A DNA stretch of 64,000 bases from an uncultured Clostridia bacterium (GTDB lineage Bacteria; Bacillota; Clostridia; Christensenellales; UBA3700). Shown piece after piece: positions 4,306 to 25,106 of this stretch. The stretch spans positions 62,001-126,000 of the forward strand of contig CANSGN010000003.1 of the NCBI GenBank assembly GCA_947646415.1, in the 5' to 3' direction. The notes beneath the pieces are model-generated. The model was given only the letters and a program-made list of their open reading frames with translations. It ran no database searches and was not told the origin of the DNA. The translations under genes and the position numbers were made by a program. How positions within the stretch are numbered: position 1 is the first letter of the stretch; each line of letters begins with the position of its first letter.

Positions 4306-6795
4306 ATGAAAAAATCGCTTGTATTTATTATATTTATTCTGCTTATTGCGGTACTTGCCTTTCCGGTTGCTTTTGCGGAAAGTTCGTCTGCACGCGAAAA
4401 TTCCGAAATATTAGAAAGTACTGTTTTATCTAATATGGATAACTATATGAAACTAAGCAACCCTGTCGCAATAGACAAAACGGATAAATACCTTGCAGTT
4501 GCAAACGATAAAACACTTTTCGTACAACCTCAAGCGGACAAACAAAACAGCTACTATCTTAACCTTATAAAAAACGATACTCCAAATGATTTTATCACTA
4601 AAGTTATAGTGATTGACAACAGGATAGTCGTTTTGGTTAAAAATAATCTTACTCAATCTAGATTGATTATTGTAAATGCGGAAAATAAAAATATTACTTC
4701 CCTAAATAATTATACAAACACTTTCAATATTACAAAACAAGGCGATAGACTTGCCATAATAGACAGCAACAAACTATATATCTGCTCGGTTGATTTAAAT
4801 AATGTAACACAAATCAAATATTACGATATGTATGTCGGTACGGCAAAGCAAGAGACCTTTAAATTTATTGACAATATCGGCTATATTCAAAACTCCGATA
4901 CATACGATTTTCATAAATGCGAGCTTAATGATAGTGAAAATAAATGCAATATTACAACAGAAAAAATAACATTGGGTAAAAATATTAACGACTATTATGT
5001 AGACGGGAATAAAATACATTATGTTGACTCAAACAATAATTTGTTTATTGACGGAAAGCAAATTGAAATGAGCGGCACGAACTTTAAACAACTTTTGATT
5101 TTCGGCGACAGTATTTTGACAACTGCAACCACCGATGATACGGATACAACCGATAACGGCAAAGTATATCAGTTCGACAAAAATGGAGCATTGACAAACT
5201 TAATTACTAGCAAAGGCGACGATTTGTACAGGTTCGACACCCCTCAAAGTGTTTTTAGTGATGGCACTTTCCTTTATATTGCGGACACAAACAACAAACG
5301 AATAATCAAAAGGAGTGTGGATAACGATAGCAGAACACCTTTCGAGTTGGGGAAAACGCCTGTAAAAGTTGTAGCAGTTCAAGGTAAAATTTATTATATT
5401 GACAACAACAATAACCTTTACAACACGGATAATTTGCTTATACGCGAAAATGTACTTTCCATTGCCGTATACAATACCAAACTTTTGATATTAAGCGACA
5501 ACAAAGTACTTTCCTATGACGGAAACACTACTTCCGATTTAATTGTAAATGTAGGACAAGTTAACGAAATTACAACAGCTGTCAGCACCAATTATGCGTA
5601 TTTGATAGATAAAAATACAGGCACTGTAAAAAAATATAATTTGGAAAAACCGACTGACCCTATATTTACCGATAGTCAAAATGTTATCAGCGGTCGCAAT
5701 TACAACATTGATTTTAGAGGCAATTTGTATGTCGAAAACAACGGAATAATCACAAAATACTCTCAAAACGGCAAATTTATAAAAGAAAAGGAATTTCAAA
5801 TAAAAAATTTGGATGCGACCTCAAAAATCGCAACCGCAGTTGACAGCATAAATGCTCACTATTATTTTACTAGCGAAAACGACCATTTGCTTTTTGAGAT
5901 AGACGGCGAAAAAATGGGACTTGTGGGAACAAAAAATATTACTTTTGATAACCCTACCCAATTTGATATAATAAAAGCGGGCAAAATCAAAGCAACAACC
6001 ATTGCATACATTACCCCAAACAATCCGGAGTCTGCAAGGTTTGTCGGCGAAAACGAAATCTTTTTGCTTCTTGCCGAAAAGGAATATAACGGCAAATTAT
6101 ACTATTATGTAACAGCGGAACACCTTGCACAAAAAGAGTACATTTTATCGGACGATATTATACCTATCGACAATGTCGATATGAACAGTCTTAAAATGAA
6201 AGCTTTAGTTAAAAATGTTATAGTATATCAATACCCGTTTAAGTATGCCGATAAATTGCAAATTAACGGCAAAGACTATTTACTTAGCCCTGAGACAGAA
6301 GTTTCGTGTATCACATTGATTGCGGCAGAAGATATTTGGAATTGGTATAAAATTTCCATAAACATTTCAGGCAGTACACAAATTGGATATGTATATGCAG
6401 ACTATTTATCAAAAGTCATACCTACTTCGCCCGAGCAAAATATCATATTTATGAAAACAAAAGCTCCGAAAATCGGTACTAATATACTTATTTATGAAAA
6501 AGCAGACATCAATTCCGCAGTATTGTTCGACGATTTGAAAGATGGTATGGATATTCAAATAATTGGTAAATATGACCCTAATACGACCTTTACAAAAGTG
6601 TATTATAAGGATAAAGTGGGATATATTTTAAATGAAAATTTGCAACCAAACGGTCTTACACCAAATCAAATAATCGCTATTACCGTTACTTCAGTTGCAA
6701 TAGTTGCATTTATAATAATTGCGATACTATTTACTCATAAAAACAAAAATGCCAAAAAGAAAATCGAAAATATTGAGCCGGATATTTTGGCATAA
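4306..6795 (+). CDS. Secreted, membrane-anchored propeller protein with SH3-like C-terminal region
   Basis: 829 residues. An N-terminal signal peptide (MKKSLVFIIFILLIAVLAF) is followed by ~550 residues of short beta-rich repeats of NHL/propeller type (for example GTFLYIADTNNKRI, GKIYYIDNNNNLYN). Two SH3b-like stretches follow (around ATEHL/YVYADYLSKVIP and KVYYKDKVGYILNENL). One membrane helix (~794-815) and a lysine-rich tail end the protein, so the bulk should sit outside the cell. It is monocistronic. The small protein at 23646 has the same signal, SH3-like, helix and basic-tail plan. The specific function is not recognisable; a role at the cell wall is inference. Confidence 0.75.
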   Translation: MKKSLVFIIFILLIAVLAFPVAFAESSSARENSEILESTVLSNMDNYMKLSNPVAIDKTDKYLAVANDKTLFVQPQADKQNSYYLNLIKNDTPNDFITKVIVIDNRIVVLVKNNLTQSRLIIVNAENKNITSLNNYTNTFNITKQGDRLAIIDSNKLYICSVDLNNVTQIKYYDMYVGTAKQETFKFIDNIGYIQNSDTYDFHKCELNDSENKCNITTEKITLGKNINDYYVDGNKIHYVDSNNNLFIDGKQIEMSGTNFKQLLIFGDSILTTATTDDTDTTDNGKVYQFDKNGALTNLITSKGDDLYRFDTPQSVFSDGTFLYIADTNNKRIIKRSVDNDSRTPFELGKTPVKVVAVQGKIYYIDNNNNLYNTDNLLIRENVLSIAVYNTKLLILSDNKVLSYDGNTTSDLIVNVGQVNEITTAVSTNYAYLIDKNTGTVKKYNLEKPTDPIFTDSQNVISGRNYNIDFRGNLYVENNGIITKYSQNGKFIKEKEFQIKNLDATSKIATAVDSINAHYYFTSENDHLLFEIDGEKMGLVGTKNITFDNPTQFDIIKAGKIKATTIAYITPNNPESARFVGENEIFLLLAEKEYNGKLYYYVTAEHLAQKEYILSDDIIPIDNVDMNSLKMKALVKNVIVYQYPFKYADKLQINGKDYLLSPETEVSCITLIAAEDIWNWYKISINISGSTQIGYVYADYLSKVIPTSPEQNIIFMKTKAPKIGTNILIYEKADINSAVLFDDLKDGMDIQIIGKYDPNTTFTKVYYKDKVGYILNENLQPNGLTPNQIIAITVTSVAIVAFIIIAILFTHKNKNAKKKIENIEPDILA

Positions 6796-13822: not shown

Positions 13823-14053
13823 TTATTTATTGTCCTCATCTTCCACTTTTTCTATCAAACTACTTTTGTCGGTATAACCGTTTCCGTCCGACGGATTACT
13901 GATTATGCCAAGTGTAACAAGCACACCTAAAATAGAAGTTATAATTTCGTTCACATACGGCAAATCGAATTTTAATCCCATTGCTTGCAGTAACATAAGT
14001 ACTGCACTGATAATGCTTATCCACAAACCGTAATTTCTAAATTTACCCTTCAT
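13823..14053 (-). CDS. Phage holin (phi-LC3/Dp-1-like)
   Basis: 76 residues. There are two hydrophobic segments (WISIISAVLMLLQAM and ITSILGVLVTLGII), then ISNPSDGNGYTDKSS, the family's typical polar tail after the second helix. Such proteins form pores in the membrane for endolysin release. It is the last gene of the virion cassette and overlaps the BhlA-like gene by 11 bp. No endolysin is adjacent, so its role here is unclear. Confidence 0.75.
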   Translation of the reverse strand: MKGKFRNYGLWISIISAVLMLLQAMGLKFDLPYVNEIITSILGVLVTLGIISNPSDGNGYTDKSSLIEKVEDEDNK

Positions 14054-14282
14054 ACATTTCCTCTGCGTTTAAAAACGATTTGATTGTTACTTGAGTTTTA
14101 ATTTCTTTCACGTCTTGCTCAATATCCATAACCGCGCCTAATTCCTTGGTTAAGGTATTAACCACTTTTTGATAATTTTGCTCACGATATCTGGAATCTT
14201 TTAAAACATAAAATAACAATAAAACAAAAAGTACAGCAAACACACCGCTTTTCGCTATCATCAATAAAATTTCGTTATCCAT
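14043..14282 (-). CDS. BhlA/UviB-type holin-like small membrane protein
   Basis: 79 residues: one N-terminal helix (SGVFAVLFVLLLFYVLKDSR) then a charged helical tail with YREQNYQKVVNTLTKEL. This matches the BhlA/UviB layout of Gram-positive phages and bacteriocin loci. The start overlaps the end of the coiled-coil gene by 8 bp and its 3' end overlaps the holin gene. Assignment is by layout and motif, not by search. Confidence 0.7.
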   Translation of the reverse strand: MDNEILLMIAKSGVFAVLFVLLLFYVLKDSRYREQNYQKVVNTLTKELGAVMDIEQDVKEIKTQVTIKSFLNAEEMYEG

Positions 14283-15243
14283 TTTGAATTTCCCTAATCA
14301 ACCTGTAATATCTAGGTCCTAAAAATGCTTTTAAAGGAGCGTTTTTGTCAATCGATTCAAGGGCTGACTGTCTGGAAAAACCGCTGTAAAATTCTTTTGC
14401 TATTCTTAGCCTTTCGTCATACTCGCGCTCACGCTCGGGACTATTAAATGTGCCGTTTAGTTCTGCCTCTTTCATTTCGGCTTGCATGTCTTGCATTTCT
14501 TTAGCTTTTTCTTTTACAACTCTATCCTGATACTCTTTATAATTCTTCTCTTCTTGTGCCGTTTTTTTATTTGTATTTACAACTTCTTCCGCCTTTTTGT
14601 TTTCCTCGTCTAAAAGTTTGTTAAACATATTTTCCACATTTTTAGTAAAAGCGGCATCAAGAGAAGCAATTTTATTTTCCTGCTCGGTTTTTAAGTTATC
14701 CTTTTTTGTCTTTGTTGTATTAAGTTTGTTTTGCAAGGCTTGCATAACTTCGCCAATGTACCTGTCTCGCTCGCTCTCCAAATCACTCTTTTTCGCCCCG
14801 ATTATCGAAGAATCGGCAATACCGTTTTTGCTTGCGGTCGACTTAAAAGATTCCGTTTTGTCATTATATTTTTCATTATAACTATCGTTTTTCTTTTCCG
14901 CATCTTCGATATAACCTTTTTCGGTTTGCTCCACATTTTCCAACTGCTCTTTATATTTGTTATTTGTTTTGTCTTTTTCACTGTTATAACTATCTTGGTA
15001 ATAGTCCTTGCTACTCTCGCGCAAAGTCTGCTCGTCGATAGGCTCATACTCCTCCAAATATTCAAAAGTTTTATCTTCTGGTCTATGTGACTCGCTATAA
15101 TTTTTGACTATCTGTTCAAGCCTCTGCCTTTCTTTTACTTCCATTCCCGCTAAAGTATTTAACAATTCTTGCTCTTTTTCAGTAGAGACATCTTCCTTAA
15201 ACAAATCTTTAAAAAAATGACCTATTTCATTAAATATTCCCAT
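14275..15243 (-). CDS. Coiled-coil virion-associated protein, unknown function
   Basis: 322 residues from the ATG at 15243 (AGGAG 5 bp upstream). An in-frame GTG at 15249 sits inside that ribosome site and is less likely. Residues ~20-280 are almost wholly charged helix (many E/K/D/N), predicted to form long coiled coils. The ends are amphipathic (MGIFNEIGHFFKDLFK) and globular (APLKAFLGPRYYRLIREI). Its place after the tail-propeller gene fits an internal ejection protein or a small tail component. No family is recognised. Confidence 0.6.
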   Translation of the reverse strand: MGIFNEIGHFFKDLFKEDVSTEKEQELLNTLAGMEVKERQRLEQIVKNYSESHRPEDKTFEYLEEYEPIDEQTLRESSKDYYQDSYNSEKDKTNNKYKEQLENVEQTEKGYIEDAEKKNDSYNEKYNDKTESFKSTASKNGIADSSIIGAKKSDLESERDRYIGEVMQALQNKLNTTKTKKDNLKTEQENKIASLDAAFTKNVENMFNKLLDEENKKAEEVVNTNKKTAQEEKNYKEYQDRVVKEKAKEMQDMQAEMKEAELNGTFNSPEREREYDERLRIAKEFYSGFSRQSALESIDKNAPLKAFLGPRYYRLIREIQNG

Positions 15244-15251
15244 ACTCACTC

Positions 15252-15620
15252 CTATATTATCCTAAGGTCTGCACTGTCAAGCTTAAGTTTTGCCGCAAGC
15301 ATACCCTCGCCCGTACATTCAACTGCCAAGCTGTAAAGTTTGTTTGATTTTAGCAAAATATCGCCAGCCGCAATTACACCTGTCAGCGAAGTAATAACTA
15401 CATTGTCAAGTTTAACTACTATACTTACAGGCTTGTCCCCCATAACTGTTATGTCATAACTAAGCACCTTATTGGCACCGTAAACATTATGGGCAAACAC
15501 AATTTGCGTATTTCCTTGCGTATTATTTTGACACAAAACTTTACTTTGCTTAACTTTGTGTTTAAGTCTTTCAATCTTGCTTTCCAGCTCATCAATCACT
15601 GCATTAAATTTATTCATCAA
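15252..15620 (-). CDS. Small phage structural protein, unknown
   Basis: 122 residues. An N-terminal coiled coil (NAVIDELESKIERLKHKVKQ) precedes a beta-rich domain (IVFAHNVYGANKVLSYDITV, then GVIAAGDILLKSN). The short trimer-like stalk followed by a beta domain suggests a minor virion decoration or tail piece (inference). Its start overlaps the stop of the propeller gene by 4 bp. Confidence 0.55.
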   Translation of the reverse strand: MMNKFNAVIDELESKIERLKHKVKQSKVLCQNNTQGNTQIVFAHNVYGANKVLSYDITVMGDKPVSIVVKLDNVVITSLTGVIAAGDILLKSNKLYSLAVECTGEGMLAAKLKLDSADLRII

Positions 15621-16954
15621 TTTTCCTCCAACACCGAATATTCAATCACAGGCGACGGTACGTTTATATTTATGCCTTTAGGGACAATTTCAATCTCAAA
15701 CTCTTTGCCTTTAAGGTTAAGAAGGGTTGCCCTTTGTCCCGATATATTATAAAAATAATTTTTACCGTCCGCATTGATTTTCAAATCAATAATGCTATCC
15801 CCGCCAAAAACTATTCTCTTCAAAAGTTTATATTCCGCGGGGCTGCCAAAATCTAATTTTCCCGATGCCCAAATTTTACTTGAGTTATTACTTTCGTCTG
15901 ATAACACCTTTATTTCATTTTCATAGCAAAGCAAAACTTTTTCCGTATTTTCGAACTTGACTTTGCACAAAAAATACGCTTTGTCACAAGTGATAAAATG
16001 ATAGTTTTTAAAAACAAGACTATACGCTATTATAAAATTATCTTTAATACTATCGTTTTGTGCCTTGCACAAAAAATAGCAATAATTACCCGTTGCAACC
16101 GCTGTTACTTCTCTATCCTCTAAAAAGCCTGCAAGCTCCTCGCAAACTGTGACGCAATCATAACCGTCAAAAACACCAAGTCCTTTGTTGGTAGCGTACA
16201 TAATCACATCCCCGCAATTAGCCACACTGCTTTTTTTAATATTATTGGGAGAGGTTATAGTTTTTACCACAAACTCATCTTGCTCGGAATATGCGGTGAT
16301 TTTTGTAAACCCGTCCTCTTGACACACAATCAAATTTTGATTAAAACTAATCAAATCATTAATATTTCCGTTTTCGAAAGACAAATTTATATATCCGCCC
16401 TCGTCAATTCCTTGCGCCCAATTAAACGGAGCAAAGTCGTCACTAAATAGTAATTTTGTCGATTGTTCCTCCGCACCGAATATCCTGTAAAAGTGATTAC
16501 ATATTGTCGCAAAATTTGTAGTTATTTCACAATCTTCAATAACTTCGTTTTGCAATTTTTTTAAGCCGTTACTTGTTGCAAGTATCACAAAATTGTCTTC
16601 CCCATATCTATAAACTGCGGCAGAATGTATATCGCAAGTTTTAGAGATTTGCGATTTTATCACACTGCCGTCTTGCATTTTAAGGATATAGTTTTTACTC
16701 TCTAGTACTACAAGCAGTTTCAAACCATTTTCGTTATAAGGTATGATTTTATTTATCTTTTCGTCAAACACCAAGTCGACGCTTTTAGGGGATAACGAAC
16801 TTACTAAAGCACCATTGAGCACTTTTAAATTTTCTTGCTTTATACTATAATCGATTGGCAAACTTTTTGAATACCCGTCCAAGCTTACCCCTTTAAAACT
16901 TGCAACTTTAACACGTCTTGTCGGCAAAAATTTTTTATAATAAATTTTTTTCAT
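15617..16954 (-). CDS. Phage beta-propeller-like tail/stabilisation protein
   Basis: 445 residues from an ATG that overlaps the adaptor stop as ATGA; a longer frame reaching 17002 lies within the upstream gene and lacks a site. The sequence is repetitive beta strand with GYSKSLPIDYSIKQENLKVL near the start and blocks such as DVIMYATNKGLGVFDGYD. By position after the adaptor it resembles the propeller tail proteins of podoviruses (P22 gp10 or T7 gp12 class). This is a positional and fold-style inference. Confidence 0.6.
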   Translation of the reverse strand: MKKIYYKKFLPTRRVKVASFKGVSLDGYSKSLPIDYSIKQENLKVLNGALVSSLSPKSVDLVFDEKINKIIPYNENGLKLLVVLESKNYILKMQDGSVIKSQISKTCDIHSAAVYRYGEDNFVILATSNGLKKLQNEVIEDCEITTNFATICNHFYRIFGAEEQSTKLLFSDDFAPFNWAQGIDEGGYINLSFENGNINDLISFNQNLIVCQEDGFTKITAYSEQDEFVVKTITSPNNIKKSSVANCGDVIMYATNKGLGVFDGYDCVTVCEELAGFLEDREVTAVATGNYCYFLCKAQNDSIKDNFIIAYSLVFKNYHFITCDKAYFLCKVKFENTEKVLLCYENEIKVLSDESNNSSKIWASGKLDFGSPAEYKLLKRIVFGGDSIIDLKINADGKNYFYNISGQRATLLNLKGKEFEIEIVPKGININVPSPVIEYSVLEEN

Positions 16955-17496
16955 GCGTTCCACCAACCGTGCTTTAATTTTATTTCCTTTGTCACTCTGC
17001 AAGCTACCTTTAACATTTCGCGATATCTTTTATCGTAAAGCGCTGAATCTTCGTATCTGCCTTGAAGCAAACAGTATTCTCCAAGTGCTCCGTATACAAT
17101 AAGCATTGTAGTTATTTTGGGCGAAATGTCTATAGTATCCCCAAGTTTTACCGCATCCGGCATATACATATATTCGACAATAACATTTCCGCTTTTATCG
17201 GCAACAATTTCGTTCGGGTACATTTTAGCACCGATTTTCATATTGTTTTTTGTTATTTTTTTTAAATTAATCAATCTTTTTGACAAACTATCGTAAGGAA
17301 TAATTCCATTTACTGCCTCCACCTCTTCGCTAAACTCCACAGGCAAATAGTCGCTTGCAATTTCAGAAACTATCATATTAATACACTTTACTATAGTATT
17401 GATTTCGCTGTCATCCTGCGGTAAATTGTTAATATCGTATTTGTCCCTGTCGCCAAGTCTTACCAAAACTTCTGTCAAAACATCCTCAACTTTCAT
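16951..17496 (-). CDS. Phage head-tail adaptor-like protein
   Basis: 181 residues from the ATG at 17496 (GAGGGG upstream; a GTG at 17508 is in frame but lies ahead of that site). Mixed alpha/beta: a helical start (VEDVLTEVLVRLGDRDKYD), a central beta part and a helical C-terminus ending YEDSALYDKRYREMLKVACR. The small size, the position between capsid and propeller genes, and the D-x-x-YD-x-RY pattern match podovirus adaptor proteins that sit under the portal. Not verified by search. Confidence 0.6.
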   Translation of the reverse strand: MKVEDVLTEVLVRLGDRDKYDINNLPQDDSEINTIVKCINMIVSEIASDYLPVEFSEEVEAVNGIIPYDSLSKRLINLKKITKNNMKIGAKMYPNEIVADKSGNVIVEYMYMPDAVKLGDTIDISPKITTMLIVYGALGEYCLLQGRYEDSALYDKRYREMLKVACRVTKEIKLKHGWWNA

Positions 17497-17504
17497 ACTA
17501 CCCC

Positions 17505-17873
17505 TCACAATTCAGAATAGGAGGGAATGTAACTTCCGCCCCTATTCATATAGTTTACTATGCTTTCGGTTTTTTTGTGCATTTCATCCAAAGTCCGATT
17601 GATTATTTTGTTCTCTAAATTTCGGTTATACTCATCAATTCCGTCAATTTCGTCAAGCATCTTATCCACTCGCGTACGCCTTACATACTCAACCGTGCGC
17701 GCATCAAGCTGTTTATACGGCAATACTAATTGAAAGGTAGGTTTATGCCTTAAATTATGTAGCTCAATAACATTATTTTTTACATTATAATACAGCCTGT
17801 AATCATCATCCAATTCCCGTACCCTAAAAGGAATATCAAAGCAATTACCGCTAATCAATCTTAACTTATCCAT
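17505..17873 (-). CDS. Small phage protein between capsid and adaptor, unknown
   Basis: 122 residues: a beta-rich first half (LRLISGNCFDIPFRVRELDD) and a helical basic second half (RRTRVDKMLDEIDGIDEYNR). Its position just after the capsid gene suggests a head-completion or decoration role. No family is recognised. It begins 3 bp after the capsid stop and ends 8 bp before the adaptor ATG. Confidence 0.55.
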   Translation of the reverse strand: MDKLRLISGNCFDIPFRVRELDDDYRLYYNVKNNVIELHNLRHKPTFQLVLPYKQLDARTVEYVRRTRVDKMLDEIDGIDEYNRNLENKIINRTLDEMHKKTESIVNYMNRGGSYIPSYSEL

Positions 17874-17876
17874 AAA

Positions 17877-19037
17877 TTAAGCGCAAACAATACCTGTCAA
17901 TTTTGCTTGACCGCAAGGTCTGTCACAAACTATGTCGGCATATTTAACCAATGTGGCAGTATATGTAGGATTGCCAAGCTTTTGTTTGATAACATTGCCG
18001 TTATCTCCCTCAAGCCATCTCCAATCGCATAATTGATGCATTTTGAAATCGTCAGTATTTAACAAATACATTTCGCCATCCTCAATAAACTTATCGCTGA
18101 CTAGTGGAATACCGCTGTAAGATAACGCCTTAAAACCGCCGTCTAAAGTCATATAATCCACATTAAGTCTGTTTGCTGACAAGTTTTTGATATACTCTTT
18201 TTTAACATCGTAAGCACAAGTGATAAAGTTTACTGCAGAGCCTGTCGCCTCGTCAATATAATCGATAGCCTCTTGAATAGTCCCCATATCAAGACTTGCA
18301 CCCACATTTTTTGTATAAGGGTTAAGCCAAGTATTCTCACTTCTCTTTAGTCCGTAAATGTCTTTTGTGCCGAAAATCGCACCTAAACCTGTAAGTTCAT
18401 AACCTTTTGAGTTTTGAATAGTGATATAATCGGTTGTTACAAGATTGGCAACCTCTTTATCAATTTTGATAGTTTTTGTGCTTCTGTCAACATCTATAAT
18501 CCTAGCTTGAGATACTTTTTTGCTACCGTTGCTGTCAAGGATATCGATAACCATACCGATAGCAACCTTTTTAACGCTTGATAGAGTAATTGAAGAAGTA
18601 GAAGTCGCAGCTACTGCAATATCTGCAAGCTTGCCGTCTCCGTCGCCGTAAAGCATTCTGCCCAAATTGTATTTAGATGCTTTTAACAATCCTTCCATTT
18701 CCGCATTCAAAAGGTTGACAAATGCACCTACATTGCTTTGAGATGCTCTTATCGCTTTATCCGAAATTTCAATGCTGCCGTACAAGTTTTTAAGTTCGAC
18801 TTTGTATTGTGCATAGTTGTTGCCCGCAGCCATTGGCAGACTTCCTGTCTCGTCGCCCGCACCTACACCGCCGTTCAATCCGTAAGATACAAGTTTTATA
18901 ATATCCTTACCCCAAACATCGCTGGAAGTTTGCTCGATTTTTGTAAGCAAAGGATTTACTTGTGCGTTTAATTGCTCGGTAACTACACCCAAATATACAC
19001 TTTTTAACGCTTTGTCTGCTGTTTCCAAATTTACCAT
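17877..19037 (-). CDS. Phage major capsid protein
   Basis: 386 residues from MVNLETADKALKSVYLG, with GGAG upstream; the open frame extends further but through the scaffold gene. The protein is HK97-fold-like by pattern: an N-terminal arm, LVSYGLNGGVGAGDETG, YGSIEISDKAIRASQSNVGAF (spine-helix region) and a C-terminal DIVCDRPCGQAKLTGIV. It follows a scaffold gene and precedes adaptor genes, the standard head order. The gene looks intact. Confidence 0.8.
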   Translation of the reverse strand: MVNLETADKALKSVYLGVVTEQLNAQVNPLLTKIEQTSSDVWGKDIIKLVSYGLNGGVGAGDETGSLPMAAGNNYAQYKVELKNLYGSIEISDKAIRASQSNVGAFVNLLNAEMEGLLKASKYNLGRMLYGDGDGKLADIAVAATSTSSITLSSVKKVAIGMVIDILDSNGSKKVSQARIIDVDRSTKTIKIDKEVANLVTTDYITIQNSKGYELTGLGAIFGTKDIYGLKRSENTWLNPYTKNVGASLDMGTIQEAIDYIDEATGSAVNFITCAYDVKKEYIKNLSANRLNVDYMTLDGGFKALSYSGIPLVSDKFIEDGEMYLLNTDDFKMHQLCDWRWLEGDNGNVIKQKLGNPTYTATLVKYADIVCDRPCGQAKLTGIVCA

Positions 19038-19038
19038 T

Positions 19039-19635
19039 TTAAAATCTCCGTGTTTCAATAAATTTTTTCGCCATTTTTCCCGCTTCGTCCAAAGTACGCG
19101 GTCTGTATGTCGGCGACACATACGAATTTCCGCCTTTTGTAATTGTTTGCGGAACTTTAATGCTGACAAGGCTGTCCAAATAATCCGCTACTACTTTGTT
19201 TATGATATCCGCATTAGTGTAAACGTAATTATTCAAAAAGTTTTCGTCATTTATAATTTTGCAAGGCTCGTTTATTTTACCCGCAAGCAGCTGTGCCAAT
19301 TTAAGTCCCAATTCCTCTACGCTGCCCGCACTTTTAAGCTCGTCCGCAAATTGCTCCAACTCAGGGTTAACGTTCAACATTTTTTCAAAAATCTTATGAT
19401 TATCTCCTAACTGATTTTCAAGTTCTTTTAACACTTGACACTTTTTCGTAAATTCTTTTTCTAAATGTTGATACCCCTCATACAAGCTATCTGCCGACTT
19501 AAATTTTCCGTAGGAGACTGCTGTTTCGCCATTGTCGGTTTGTATATCCGATTGCAAAGTTTGCTCTGTAAGAGTCTCCTCAACCGTAACCGGTGTTACT
19601 TCAGCCGTTTGTTCCGTAGTATTAATTTCTTGCAT
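19039..19635 (-). CDS. Capsid scaffolding protein
   Basis: 198 residues. The acidic, Thr/Glu-rich N-terminus is followed by YGKFKSADSLYEGYQHLEKE, a segment common in phage scaffolds, then a coiled-coil middle and a basic C-terminus (RPRTLDEAGKMAKKFIETRR), the usual capsid-binding end. It is located between portal and capsid, overlaps the portal 3' end by 14 bp and has GGAGG before the ATG. It should act only during head assembly. Confidence 0.75.
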   Translation of the reverse strand: MQEINTTEQTAEVTPVTVEETLTEQTLQSDIQTDNGETAVSYGKFKSADSLYEGYQHLEKEFTKKCQVLKELENQLGDNHKIFEKMLNVNPELEQFADELKSAGSVEELGLKLAQLLAGKINEPCKIINDENFLNNYVYTNADIINKVVADYLDSLVSIKVPQTITKGGNSYVSPTYRPRTLDEAGKMAKKFIETRRF

Positions 19636-21499
19636 TATTATCCTCCGTTAATAAATTATTTTGATTTATCATAGCCAAATACATTTGATGAGCTTTTATA
19701 TGGTTGCTTATTCTTGCCACAACCGACTCATTTTCCTCATTTATAACCGACTTAATGTGCTCGTCAATATGTAATTGATGGTTGTCGTATTCCATTGGCG
19801 ATACTTCTTTTTCTTTAAATGTCATATTTTCCTTTTGAGCTTTTACCCTATGGCACTCGTTAATGTCTTGCACTGACTCCCAATTACCAAAACCGAGCAT
19901 TTCCAAAAGTTTAAGCCTGTTTCTCTCGCTCATACCGCCGTTAGAATCCCTAAACATTCCCATTCTTACAAGTTCCAAAACCATATTACGTCTATTTGCA
20001 GGTGTTTCGTTAAGCTCATTGTCGGTGTCAAAAACCAAATCGTCTGATGCCAAGTCCGAGCCTTGGAAATACATAAGCTGTATTTCCCCGTTATCCCCTG
20101 CAATACGTTTTAATCTTCTTGAAAGCGCAAATTGTTTGTACAATCGCAAAATCAACTGCCCTATTTTTTTTACGGCATTTCGGATAGACTCTGCCGAAAC
20201 GGAAATTCTTGTATCATCCTGCTCTTGTAGCAAACTTATTGCTGCGCCCGAAGTTACATTTGACGGCAAACTCGAACTTCTCATAAATTCACTAACGCCT
20301 GTTATATTTACAAAAGTGTCTTCCAACCTCGACTCTTCGCTGTCGAACTCGCTTGGTACACTACCCATATTGAGCATTCTCGGAGGATTGCATCCACCTC
20401 GGTAAATCAAAACTTTACCGGGGGACAATCCCTCTTCCTCCAAATTATCCGTATCCACCGAGCCGTCCTCAACTGCAAGCACACCCATAGCGATTCTGTT
20501 CATAAACTCGTGCTTTTTGTTTTTTATTCCGTTGTACGCTCTTTGAACGGGTATAATTCTTTCCACAATGCTACTGCCGTAAAAATTAGTAACACTCTCA
20601 AGTGAGGTTTTTCTGACAAACGGTAAACCGAATCCTCCGTCTTGCTCCGTTTGGTATGGCAAATCCTCCGCCACAACCAATTTATCCCCCGCAACAATAA
20701 TGTGCCTGCCGTTTGGATATAACTTGGATGGTCTTTCAAATTTTTCGATTACCAAGCAAGAGTTTTCACGCGGAGAAGTGGAATATCTTGCATTGCTTGC
20801 AGTATATCCAAGTCCGCCACCGTTAGGCACATTGTCAAAGCTAAACACCTGTAACGATTGCGGCTCAACTTGCACGTCCCATATTTCCTTTACTTCATCC
20901 ACCGAATATACTTTTGCATGATAAATATATTTGCAATCTTCTATATTGTTGTTTGTAATTTTATCGGGAAAAATTTCATAAGGCGGACATAAAATTATAT
21001 CTATATCCCCTTCCTTGACTATTTTTTTATCTTTCGCCTCGCCGATAGCACGTCCTTTGTCAGCATTCCACACAACCTTAAAAAACACGCTGCCGCAAAT
21101 CTCACTCCAAACATTGCTTTGAGCTAATATTTCGGACAGCTTATTTTCTTCCGAAATAGTTTTTAATACGTTAGTGGATAGTTTTGCCACATTTATATCC
21201 TTTTCGTCTTGGCTAAAAGGTCTTACACTCACATTTGCCTGCACTCTGCCAAGTTTGGCAAGTCTTGTCTCGATAATAGGTGCAATATGGTTAAATACCT
21301 CCCTTTCTTGCCAAAAATACTGTTTACCGTAATCTTCCACATCTCCTATAGGGGAGATTTCGCAATATTGATTGCCTTGAACAAAATTCATGTTCAATCG
21401 CCATTGACTCTCAAGGGCTTTACGTTCATCGCTTATTCGCTCAAAATCATGTAAAACTTCCTTTACAATATCCTCTGCAAAATTTATTTTATTTTTCAT
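19622..21499 (-). CDS. Phage portal protein (P22-like)
   Basis: 625 residues. The N-terminus is helical with the ERKALESQWRLNMNFVQGNQY pattern. Stem and clip features include IIPVQRAYNGIKNKKHEFMN, KVLIYRGG and ITGVSEFMRSSSLPSNVTSG, then the helical crown. It forms the dodecameric ring at one capsid vertex and the channel for DNA packaged by terminase. It overlaps the upstream small gene (ATGA). Length and motifs are complete, with no frameshift. Confidence 0.85.
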   Translation of the reverse strand: MKNKINFAEDIVKEVLHDFERISDERKALESQWRLNMNFVQGNQYCEISPIGDVEDYGKQYFWQEREVFNHIAPIIETRLAKLGRVQANVSVRPFSQDEKDINVAKLSTNVLKTISEENKLSEILAQSNVWSEICGSVFFKVVWNADKGRAIGEAKDKKIVKEGDIDIILCPPYEIFPDKITNNNIEDCKYIYHAKVYSVDEVKEIWDVQVEPQSLQVFSFDNVPNGGGLGYTASNARYSTSPRENSCLVIEKFERPSKLYPNGRHIIVAGDKLVVAEDLPYQTEQDGGFGLPFVRKTSLESVTNFYGSSIVERIIPVQRAYNGIKNKKHEFMNRIAMGVLAVEDGSVDTDNLEEEGLSPGKVLIYRGGCNPPRMLNMGSVPSEFDSEESRLEDTFVNITGVSEFMRSSSLPSNVTSGAAISLLQEQDDTRISVSAESIRNAVKKIGQLILRLYKQFALSRRLKRIAGDNGEIQLMYFQGSDLASDDLVFDTDNELNETPANRRNMVLELVRMGMFRDSNGGMSERNRLKLLEMLGFGNWESVQDINECHRVKAQKENMTFKEKEVSPMEYDNHQLHIDEHIKSVINEENESVVARISNHIKAHQMYLAMINQNNLLTEDNNARN

Positions 21500-21723
21500 T
21501 GCAATTTTTCTCCTTGTCTTTTTACCGAGCGATTAATAACATTCATCGGACTTTTGGGAACAAATTCCTTGGTAAGCAATTCGAACAATTCCTTTGCACA
21601 ATCCTCGCATAAATATATTTTACGACGGGATAGTACACCGTCCTCGAATATTTCGTATTTTGCTTGATTTTTGCAAAGTCCGAAATCACACCTTACTTTT
21701 ACTTTGAGATTTGCTAACTTCAT
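21496..21723 (-). CDS. Small zinc-finger-like phage protein
   Basis: 75 residues. Four cysteines in two pairs (CDFGLCKNQAKYEI and YLCEDCAKELFELL) suggest a treble-clef or ribbon zinc site. It lies between the putative terminase partner and the portal and overlaps both neighbours. A role in packaging or capsid completion is a guess; it could equally be a nucleic-acid-binding regulator. Confidence 0.55.
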   Translation of the reverse strand: MKLANLKVKVRCDFGLCKNQAKYEIFEDGVLSRRKIYLCEDCAKELFELLTKEFVPKSPMNVINRSVKRQGEKLQ

Positions 21724-22009
21724 TTTTATCCTCCAATTTTTTTAATAACTTCAGCAATCTGATTTTTTCGGCATATAATTCGCTGTCACTCAAATTGTTA
21801 AATTCTTCATCTTGCTTTGAAATTTCCAAATACGCTTTCAACGCTGCGACATCGGGAGGAACGCTTTTAACTGTTATTTTTCTTTTTAACAGCTCGCCTC
21901 CCTTATCTTCGCCTGCGTACTCCTCCACTATTTCTTCCGTTTGATACCCCATGCCTTTTTTATACAAAGTTTCCAGCATAGTGTCACGCTTACTTTTTTT
22001 TACTGTCAT
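21686..22009 (-). CDS. Terminase-associated small protein (possible small subunit)
   Basis: 107 residues. Basic N-terminus, central EEYAGEDKGGELLKRKITVK and SVPPDVAALKAYLEI, then a charged helix. The beta-hairpin plus VPPDVAALKAYLEI ending is recurrent in small proteins encoded beside phage terminases. It sits 69 bp after terL and overlaps the zinc-finger gene by 38 bp. No clear N-terminal HTH is visible, so the small-subunit call is tentative. Confidence 0.5.
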   Translation of the reverse strand: MTVKKSKRDTMLETLYKKGMGYQTEEIVEEYAGEDKGGELLKRKITVKSVPPDVAALKAYLEISKQDEEFNNLSDSELYAEKIRLLKLLKKLEDKNEVSKSQSKSKV

Positions 22010-22078
22010 ACATTCCTCTTAATTACCAACGCAATAGCAAGACATAATCTTTTGCGACAATGCACAAAACTATTACTT

Positions 22079-23509
22079 TTACAATCTTCTTAATCTTCGC
22101 ATTAGCTTGCTTTTGTCCTTTTCAATTTCACTCAGCTCTTTAAATTTAGCTTCGTTAAGCGACGGCTTTGTCATAATATAATACCTTAAAGCATCCAATG
22201 TATGGTCATCAACCTTTTTGGGATTGTCACCGTTAGACCACCAATATGACTTTAACTCGCGTATCAAATTTACGCAATTTTTAAAAATAAATAACTTTTG
22301 CGGGCGAGCTTTTAAGTACTCCTTTACTCTTGCAATCCCACTAAACATATCCTTATTTACATTTGGATTTACCACTATCCCCTTTTCATAAAACAATTCG
22401 GCAACGCTTTTACTGTATGCAAGAGTATGCTGCTTGCTTGCACTATCTATCAAAGCGGAAAGCCTACCCTTACTGTCCCTATGCCAATTAAGTTTGTCTG
22501 CCAATGCAAAAATCTTTTCGGTATGATACTCAATATCCCGCCCTGCTTCATAATGCTCGCCTACTACATAAATGTTTCCGTCATAGTCTACTGCAAAAAA
22601 CAGACATGCCAACGGATTGTTAAGCCCAGGGTCGATTGCAATATTGTCCTGCCATTCGCTAGGCACGGAAAAAGGCTCTACAATATGCAAATTGCTGTCA
22701 AATTCGGGATAAACAAGTCCGCTATCTGCCGAAAAATTACCAAACCGTCTGCTGTCTACGGAATCACTGCTCAAAGTTTTTGTAAGCAGTTCCACCTCTT
22801 TTTTATTCAAAAAAGGGTTATCCGCCCATTCTATGTGTATATGCCATACTTCGGGATTATTGGATTTGTTCAAATAAATTTCTTCGTAAACCCAAGTAAG
22901 CCCCTTAAGCGGTGTCATAGTTCCCCATACTTCTCCGCGCCTGTCAAGCACACGCATTATACATTCCTCGTATATGTCGTAAGGGGGTTCTTCGTCAAAC
23001 CAAACATAGTCAAGCGATGTTCCTTGAAATTTTTCTCTGCCTTGGTCGCAACTTTTAAAACCTATTTTGGATAGTCCGCCAAATACATTTTTAATTACTA
23101 TATGGTCAATAATACCGTACTCGGGTGCACCTTTACGCCCGGACATCATTACAATATCTTCAATCCAATCGGGATTGAGATAGTGCAAAATTTTTGCTTG
23201 AGCAACGTCTCGCTGCACCTCATAAGAAAGCGAAACCACCCATCCGATAGTATTTGCCCGATTTTCTCTATACGGATGATTTCCCCTTGCCCACCAAATA
23301 GCTTCTACCGCACCGCATTCTGTCTTCCCACTGCGGTTGCCACCGAATACCCATCTGTTACGCTTTAGGCATTTGTGAAATTCCATTTGTTTTTTATGTA
23401 TTTTTTCGCCTGTATTGTAAAAAAGCAAGCGATTTTTATTTTGTCGTCTAAGTTCTTCTTTCTCAATACTCAGTATTTTTTTTACAATGCTGTTCACATC
23501 TTGCCCCAT
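22079..23509 (-). CDS. Terminase large subunit
   Basis: 476 residues from the ATG at 23509 (GGAGG 6 bp upstream). ATPase: Walker A GGNRSGKT (56-63) and Walker B WFDEE (~170-174). RNase-H-like nuclease: Asp293 (AIDPG), Asp355 (ALIDSAS) and Asp434/435/439 (DDHTLDALRY). All packaging-motor and nuclease residues are therefore present. First gene of the virion cassette. No strong consensus promoter is seen in the 136-bp gap before it, which it shares with the divergent SH3-like gene. Confidence 0.9.
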   Translation of the reverse strand: MGQDVNSIVKKILSIEKEELRRQNKNRLLFYNTGEKIHKKQMEFHKCLKRNRWVFGGNRSGKTECGAVEAIWWARGNHPYRENRANTIGWVVSLSYEVQRDVAQAKILHYLNPDWIEDIVMMSGRKGAPEYGIIDHIVIKNVFGGLSKIGFKSCDQGREKFQGTSLDYVWFDEEPPYDIYEECIMRVLDRRGEVWGTMTPLKGLTWVYEEIYLNKSNNPEVWHIHIEWADNPFLNKKEVELLTKTLSSDSVDSRRFGNFSADSGLVYPEFDSNLHIVEPFSVPSEWQDNIAIDPGLNNPLACLFFAVDYDGNIYVVGEHYEAGRDIEYHTEKIFALADKLNWHRDSKGRLSALIDSASKQHTLAYSKSVAELFYEKGIVVNPNVNKDMFSGIARVKEYLKARPQKLFIFKNCVNLIRELKSYWWSNGDNPKKVDDHTLDALRYYIMTKPSLNEAKFKELSEIEKDKSKLMRRLRRL

Positions 23510-23645
23510 CAAAATCCTCCTATAAACATTTTTAAGCCGTTTTTGTAATAATCAAGCTATTTATGACAATTTTTTTTATAATTGGAAAGTTTTTTTTGAA
23601 TTTTCTTGTTAAAATATCTCTAACTCAACAATAGGAGAGTAATTT

Positions 23646-24431
23646 ATGAAAAAAATATCTGTCAAAAATTTGATATTAAATGCTTTTATCGCTTTTGCCA
23701 TATTATTTGTATGCGCTGCACCATTTATAGCATCGCATGTCGCTTATGCAGAGGGCGAAATAAAAAGTTATTACTATATAAAACAAAACACCATTTTAAT
23801 ACCCGAAGGTCAAAAAATAAATGGTAATATACAATTAAATTCAACTTATTATGTGGAGGCTACGGGCAATCCCGATGTTGTTATAAACGATATTACATAT
23901 AGATATGTTATATATAATGGAATTACAGGTCTTGTACCATCCTCCGCACTGAGCAAAAAATCTATTAATAACGTAACCACACCGTTTTTTATAAGCAACA
24001 GCAAGCTTACTGCTTATTCGGAAAAAGAATATGATTTGTTGATGTTTTTTAATATCAACTCCAATAAAACCGAATGTCAAAAACTTAAAAATAACGATAA
24101 GTTAGATTTTATCGCTTATTCTGAAAACGGAACTTATATACTTGCAAAGCTTGCGGATTCCACTGTCGGCTATGTTCCTAAAAATTTTTGTTCTCCAACG
24201 ATTATTTATACACCCAATCCAAATCCGATAAATCCGGATAACGAAACCTCATTACCGGGACTTACCCCCGATAATCCGACAGCCCCCACAACAAGTATAA
24301 ACAAAGCAACAATAACAAGAGTTGTTTTGATAATAACGCTTTGCGTTGTAGTTGTAGTAGTTATATTTTTATTATTTAAACCCACAAGCAAAAAAAAGAA
24401 AAGCAGCGTAGACGATTTTTATGATTTTTAA
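23646..24431 (+). CDS. Small secreted SH3-like protein with C-terminal membrane anchor
   Basis: 261 residues: a signal peptide (cleavage near VAYAEG), a beta-rich domain with SH3b-like strands (YRYVIYNGITGLVPSSAL and ADSTVGYVPKNFC), a Pro/Asn/Thr-rich linker, one membrane helix (VVLIITLCVVVVVVIFLLF) and a basic tail. The plan is a short version of the 829-residue protein at 4306. GGAGAG lies upstream. It separates the virion cassette from the HTH regulator and is transcribed opposite to both. Function unknown; probably wall-facing. Confidence 0.7.
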   Translation: MKKISVKNLILNAFIAFAILFVCAAPFIASHVAYAEGEIKSYYYIKQNTILIPEGQKINGNIQLNSTYYVEATGNPDVVINDITYRYVIYNGITGLVPSSALSKKSINNVTTPFFISNSKLTAYSEKEYDLLMFFNINSNKTECQKLKNNDKLDFIAYSENGTYILAKLADSTVGYVPKNFCSPTIIYTPNPNPINPDNETSLPGLTPDNPTAPTTSINKATITRVVLIITLCVVVVVVIFLLFKPTSKKKKSSVDDFYDF

Positions 24432-24512: not shown

Positions 24513-25088
24513 TCAATCACATACGGCTTCAAGGAAAACAAAATCGTCTTTGGCAAATTTAGGCTCTTGGTTATAGTGATTACAATCTTCGTCAACATAA
24601 TTTTCTGCCATTCGAATACTGAATTTGGCTTTATTGTTGACCTTTATTTGCAATCTATTATAATTAGATAAAAACAAGCTATCCATACCGAACTCTTTCA
24701 TAATGGCAGCACTATCGTAACCCTGTTCGGTTAAATAAAATGCAAATTTAGCAAGTTCTTTGTCAAAATTGCGAAATACCTGTCTGATATTTATCTGCTC
24801 TTTTTCCGCAATTTCTTTAAACGAAAGTTTTAACCTGTAATAAAAATCAAGTATATTGTTGTTTGTTTTTCGCAATTTTTCCAAAGCGTTATCTACAATG
24901 CATTTTGCAAGCATACAATTATTTTTCCTTGTCATGGAAGATACCATTTCACTATATAATAAATATATATTATTGTTATACATTGACTTTGCCACCAACC
25001 GATTAAATTTATTGTCCGACATAATCACATTTCTATCAAAACTGTGATACATATCCAATAAAGTTTTTTGCCATAAGAAGTTTTCCAT
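24513..25088 (-). CDS. HTH regulator, sigma-region-4-like (unassigned family)
   Basis: 191 residues from the ATG at 25088 (GGAGG 5 bp upstream; a TTG at 25100 overlaps the site). The middle contains DFYYRLKLSFKEIAEKEQIN and IRQVFRNFDKELAKFAFYL, a helix-turn-helix of the sigma-70 region 4 / phage late-activator type. The rest is helical without known motifs. Its promoter is embedded in a 44-bp palindrome, so autoregulation or tight repression is likely. It could be the regulator of the adjacent virion cassette; that link is positional only. Confidence 0.6.
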   Translation of the reverse strand: MENFLWQKTLLDMYHSFDRNVIMSDNKFNRLVAKSMYNNNIYLLYSEMVSSMTRKNNCMLAKCIVDNALEKLRKTNNNILDFYYRLKLSFKEIAEKEQINIRQVFRNFDKELAKFAFYLTEQGYDSAAIMKEFGMDSLFLSNYNRLQIKVNNKAKFSIRMAENYVDEDCNHYNQEPKFAKDDFVFLEAVCD

Positions 25089-25106
25089 TTTCGCCTCCAA
25101 TTTTCA

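Follow-up and report, generated by a model that had tools for sequence, protein, structure and literature searches.

A 64,000-nucleotide stretch from an uncultured Clostridia bacterium (contig CANSGN010000003.1, positions 62,001 to 126,000; hereafter the window) carries a compact cassette of virion genes among ordinary host genes, which raises the question of what this cassette is. An earlier note on the same DNA proposed a domesticated particle resembling a gene transfer agent (GTA) or a satellite's helper module, as opposed to random prophage decay. In our analysis the cassette is likely to be a podovirus-type GTA, acquired no later than in the ancestor shared by many Christensenellales families and passed on vertically since, with some losses. 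The domesticated particle gains strong support from near-universal presence in single copy, spread across the order, trees congruent with those of the hosts, purifying selection and retention after unlinking. The best reading of the locus is a GTA-like lineage new to the Christensenellales, with order-wide reach and a function that we infer.

Gene content of the cassette

The cassette (13823-23512, minus strand) consists of 13 mostly overlapping open reading frames (ORFs) without internal stops, which make up a podovirus-type set for head, packaging and tail. Profile matches agree with the terL, portal, capsid and two holin genes described before. The genes and their two neighbours on the terL side are given below with lengths in amino acids (aa); pLDDT is the predicted local distance difference test score.

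22079..23512, minus strand: terL, large terminase, 477 aa (Pfam Terminase_6N 4.6e-16, 6C 7e-7; PHROG TerL 1e-33)
21686..22009, minus strand: terS-like small terminase, 107 aa (weak phrog_309 match, without the N-terminal ~195 profile positions)
21496..21723, minus strand: Cys-rich conserved protein, 75 aa (Cys pairs in the translation; most loci keep it here, flanked by terS and portal)
19622..21499, minus strand: portal, 625 aa (P22_portal 1.8e-22, SU10_portal 1.3e-9)
19039..19635, minus strand: scaffold candidate, 198 aa (placed between portal and capsid, order conserved)
17877..19034, minus strand: major capsid protein, 385 aa (NCBIfam capsid_maj_Podo 7.2e-75; phrog_14242 4.7e-50)
17505..17873, minus strand: conserved head protein, 122 aa (kept directly after the capsid gene)
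16951..17508, minus strand: adaptor candidate, 185 aa (named by its position between capsid and nozzle; no family match)
15617..17002, minus strand: predicted tail nozzle, beta-propeller, 461 aa (AlphaFold pLDDT 91; PDB podovirus tail nozzles, best E 4.7e-21)
15252..15620, minus strand: probable short tail fibre or receptor-binding slot, 122 aa (N-terminal part coiled and C-terminal part beta-like, judged by inspection alone)
14275..15249, minus strand: DUF7934, all-helical virion protein, 324 aa (Pfam 8.4e-18; AlphaFold pLDDT 93)
14043..14282, minus strand: BhlA-type holin, 79 aa (Holin_BhlA 4.2e-18)
13823..14053, minus strand: second holin, 76 aa (Phage_holin_1 1.3e-3, phiLC3 3.1e-4)
23646..24431, plus strand: p261, linked neighbour of terL (signal peptide, SH3-like region and C-terminal membrane anchor, by inspection)
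24513..25100, minus strand: p195, sigma-70 region-4-like regulator, candidate activator (Sigma70_r4_2; PDB sigma factors 1.5e-6)

The 13-gene block stood as first delimited; p261 and p195 lie beyond its right edge and are conserved. The capsid ORF, previously placed with a start at 19169, begins near 19034; a profile search of the capsid alignment against PDB returned nothing relevant.

No integrase, replication gene or endolysin was recognised by ORF inspection in or beside the cassette, and no phage repressor within 13823-23512, as had been claimed. The integration, replication and immunity genes of an active temperate prophage were likewise not recognised in the cassette or the flanking ORFs. 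The flanks hold normal host genes, as first described, with gyrA, gyrB, an alpha/beta hydrolase and a murG-like gene on one side and an FAD oxidase and an FGGY kinase on the other. The composition also proved to be host-like: the relative synonymous codon usage of the cassette correlates with that of the host at r 0.942, compared with 0.954 between host subsets, and GC content is 37.4% vs 34.5% in the host.

The cassette is not restricted to head genes. The 461-aa propeller is predicted to be a podovirus tail nozzle: its modelled structure matched best the tail of podophage Pa223 (E 4.7e-21), followed by the VP1, P22 gp10, Sf6 and T7 tail complexes. The slot between the nozzle and DUF7934 varies by family, being either empty or filled by at least one protein of up to 784 aa, and in one genome (G066) its content gave tail-protein matches. 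Because the 122-aa protein fills the same slot in the window, we read it as a fibre, and the variable slot after the nozzle probably encodes a receptor-binding fibre. Together with the nozzle and the adaptor, this small fibre contradicts the view that everything but the head genes is absent, and the reported lack of a receptor-binding protein is probably wrong. DUF7934 is probably an ejected or inner-tail protein; its AlphaFold model contains a helix of ~117 residues, its fold search returned weak coiled-coil matches only (best 7.8e-3), and inspection revealed a LysM-like repeat on the protein of G066.

Phage small terminases (TerS) usually start with a DNA-binding helix-turn-helix, the absence of which has been proposed as a mark of the GTA type (PMC6854486). 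The window TerS aligns with phrog_309 only at positions 201-248 of 319, and six other members begin at 195-202, while the match begins at residue 2-19 of the members themselves. In a prophage-like relative from another family (L130), TerS is full-length. Judged from these alignments, the likely small terminase of the cassette appears to be without the N-terminal part that binds the specific packaging site in phages.

Beyond the 13 genes, p195 and p261 are kept beside terL in almost every relative. Sigma70_r4_2 matches were obtained for 16 of 23 p195 homologs; p195 is a candidate activator because it is sigma-region-4-like and stays with terL. Membrane-anchored surface proteins with SH3-like regions, encoded in the window at 4306-6795 and 23646-24431 (p261), often adjoin the cassette across the order. 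Neither of the two, p261 or the large SH3/propeller protein at 4306-6795, qualified as an essential part, since both also occur in cassette-free genomes, and p261 is therefore listed as a linked neighbour only.

Distribution, descent and selection

Homologs of terL were found in 46 of 59 relatives, with 63-80% identity within the family of the window, where every genome of genera g1-g5 carries the gene and none of the five genomes of genus g6 does. Sampled across Christensenellales, the capsid profile matched 173/297 genomes and 63/125 genera, nearly always with one copy free of stops. Across the class it matched 26/391 genomes, 14 of them in Christensenellales and the rest comprising all five sampled genomes of genus g179 plus scattered singles, so that it is rare beyond the order. 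The named collection holds at least 570 matching loci; Candidatus Ornithoclostridium, assigned by NCBI to Christensenellales, Christensenellaceae, is among the family's named records. A scattered occurrence at different sites, the pattern said to indicate simple decay, was not found in Christensenellales and serves as a contrast in family f48, where a distantly related capsid gene occurs in 3/38 genomes from three genera, as expected of prophages.

Among the 76 named loci with at least five interior core genes, 74 have the gene order of the window, and 652 of 658 genes in the named loci (99%) are unbroken. We estimated the ratio of nonsynonymous to synonymous substitutions (dN/dS) by the Nei-Gojobori method, setting saturated pairs aside. 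Values mostly fell at 0.03-0.05 for terL, 0.02-0.07 for portal and 0.03-0.14 for capsid, compared with 0.01-0.03 for gyrB and 0.12-0.19 for the murG-like gene. These three cassette genes are hence under purifying selection with dN/dS far below 1, including terL and capsid, for which this test had been suggested. The 13-gene cassette is intact and is no decaying prophage.

Trees of TerL, portal, capsid and RpoB were built from 35 genomes. Of 32 splits, 19 are common to the RpoB tree and the trees of the packaging and head genes, a number that did not exceed two in 500 shuffles, and the Mantel correlation with RpoB was 0.886, with none of 999 shuffles as high. The trees of these genes follow the host and thus document vertical descent.

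All loci read have chromosomal flanks. The suggested common site beside murG holds for g1, g2 and several members of g4 and fails elsewhere: in g5 the cassette lies near gyrA-gyrB on its other side, and its neighbours elsewhere in the order, read from ORFs, are for example RNase J or ispG-polC. In g6, represented by G007, a gap of 4.6 kb filled by unrelated genes separates the murG-like gene from p261, which gives a picture of cassette loss. In genus g33, with genomes of 0.8-1.2 Mb, coordinates in each of the five genomes tested put 39-104 kb between terL and the capsid gene. There p195 and p261 moved with an intact terL in all four genomes read at terL, and the terS-to-holin block is intact in all four read at the capsid gene. 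A mobile element needs linked parts and a domesticated host system does not, so that this unlinking without loss speaks for a host system.

Several further arrangements were observed. In g179 (family f76, another order), related capsid and terL genes lie at separate host loci (L133, L138-L141, L336-L338) with a small regulator-like ORF beside terL, perhaps a second, dispersed GTA. A complete phage-like relative is present as well in one of these genomes (G464). One locus (L142:8035-10370, G122) has two different capsid genes in tandem, both at ~1e-148 to the profile, in an otherwise complete cassette. In three IMG/VR contigs the cassette is interrupted immediately after the capsid gene by a restriction-modification system, whole or partial: type I (L158:8658-14182), type II (L186:13200-18088) and type II with a type IV-like enzyme (L197:7211-12191). 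A GC-rich contig, L193 (IMGVR_UViG_2887785357), has the same gene set and, in addition, large tail-like proteins (807 and 704 aa); it may be a genuine phage related to the cassette. L265 and L230 are named as Myxococcota (Corallococcus sp.; Candidatus Fimimonas, so placed by NCBI), and their cassettes are closely of the Christensenellales type; these names are probably wrong.

A gene transfer agent weighed against other explanations

GTAs are defined by particle proteins derived from tailed phages, an endogenised genome that often occupies several loci, vertical inheritance, packing of mostly random host DNA with their own genome not or not fully packed, and delivery to other cells (PMC9662315). 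The cassette has tailed-phage-derived particle proteins, as the TerL, portal, capsid and nozzle matches indicate. It is endogenised, with chromosomal flanks and, in five genomes, two unlinked parts, and the tree congruence and conserved order document vertical inheritance and co-diversification. On random packing of host DNA, the truncated TerS and the virome packaging reported for two Christensenellaceae genera bear only indirectly.

Several observations weigh against this assignment. TerS was identified from modest matches (best 6.6e-8), and p261 is not exclusive to carriers. Holins are absent from the cassettes of many families, and inspection of the flanking ORFs of 20 loci for an endolysin yielded ordinary host genes only. 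The cassette is missing from g6 and from a large share of the order, insertion sites differ between families, and the deep nodes of the trees contain up to three strongly supported conflicts, so that rare transfer may have occurred.

Intactness and vertical descent would suit any particle that benefits its host, including one that packs DNA without delivering it and serves another job such as PBSX-like killing of neighbours, immunity or lysis. The strong variability of the fibre slot between families would fit such a role, and the authors who described the FpGTA of Faecalibacterium leave the same option open (PMC12946183). However, conservation is strongest in TerL, portal and capsid, which points to DNA packaging as a selected function, and a long tail and a killing module are absent; we regard another job as unlikely.

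A phage satellite resembling phage-inducible chromosomal islands, or a minimal temperate phage that still moves and relies on a helper for replication and tail parts, would account for the compact size, for the restriction-modification genes that entered some copies and for the 51 related loci in IMG/VR (L149-L199). The latter are, however, mostly contigs below 20 kb with the same cassette, and virus catalogues' counts may be inflated by such chromosomal cassettes listed as viral contigs. No integrase, primase or capsid-remodelling gene was seen, the linked mobile unit expected of such islands is missing, the cassette encodes its own tail parts, and its near-universal single copy follows a host-like tree. 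With terL 39-104 kb away in five genomes and no mobility genes, we rejected the satellite, and with it the helper module of the earlier note, as very improbable.

An ordinary decaying prophage that happens to retain its head genes is hardly credible for the order and was rejected, because the loss of the cassette from one genus and the sporadic distant relative in another family (3/38) are outweighed by intactness in 99% of 658 genes, dN/dS far below 1 and conservation of the same gene set across many families.

Returning to the GTA, we infer the following working model. The regulator p195 would help to turn on the operon in a small part of the population, and portal, scaffold and capsid would assemble a small head. 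TerL, together with a TerS that is without the specific DNA-binding part, would fill these heads with any chromosomal DNA met, while adaptor, nozzle and the family-specific fibre would make a short tail. Holins and a wall hydrolase encoded elsewhere would release the particles, which could then carry host DNA into related cells.

Good documentation of GTAs comes mainly from Alphaproteobacteria and Brachyspira, and Faecalibacterium has recently added a case from the gut. We hold with moderate confidence that the cassette represents a GTA lineage of gut Clostridia that is ancient and spans the order, with an architecture independent of described GTAs, retained in genomes as small as 0.8-1.2 Mb and with a swappable fibre slot that tunes the recipients. 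If so, it would rank with the most widespread GTA families in the number of its host species, and it would be a candidate source of the Christensenellaceae host-DNA particles already observed in human gut viromes. In genomes as reduced as these, a particle that is kept must be worth its cost. An order-wide system in common gut bacteria, most of them uncultured, would make routine, host-controlled exchange of DNA by particles a widespread process in animal guts, and a definite gene set is now available to match against existing virome reads.

Comparison with known systems

The nearest described analogue, compared by description only, is FpGTA; a 16S probe picked out no Faecalibacterium among 391 genomes of the class. 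FpGTA I/II have a ~10 kb operon encoding a TerS without DNA-binding domain, TerL, portal, scaffold, capsid and podovirus-type parts but no replication genes; they are near-ubiquitous in Faecalibacterium, and ~40 nm particles with 8.4-8.9 kb of host DNA were shown (PMC12946183). Both systems combine a gut Clostridia host, a truncated TerS, a podovirus-type head and packaging set and the lack of replication genes, as far as genes go in our case. They differ in that TerS lies upstream of TerL in FpGTA and downstream in the cassette, and in that FpGTA encodes fibre, receptor-binding protein, holin and endolysin in a second operon, whereas the cassette contains its holins and probable fibre; no second operon was searched for here. 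FpGTA is known from one genus and the cassette from an order. The cassette measures 9.7 kb compared with the 8.4-8.9 kb of DNA in FpGTA particles. GTA-like packaging of host DNA has also been reported in the Christensenellaceae genera HGM11616 and QANA01, with no operon named (PMC12946183). The cassette is a natural candidate for this activity; among the papers searched, none besides that study joins gene transfer agents with Christensenellales or Christensenellaceae.

With the RcGTA family (Rhodogtaviriformidae, Alphaproteobacteria) the cassette shares vertical descent over an order-scale clade, a GTA-type TerS, the lack of replication genes and partly dispersed loci, and no relationship is claimed. 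RcGTA has a long siphovirus-like tail, in contrast to the podovirus-type particle of the cassette. PBSX of Bacillus subtilis, a long-tailed bactericidal particle, resembles the proposed particle of the cassette in being defective and packing host DNA in a Gram-positive host, and TerL has a weak family match to it. P22/SU10/VP1/Pa223-type podoviruses are full phages with replication, lysis and a full-length TerS, and the cassette has in common with them the portal family, the nozzle fold and the podovirus capsid family.

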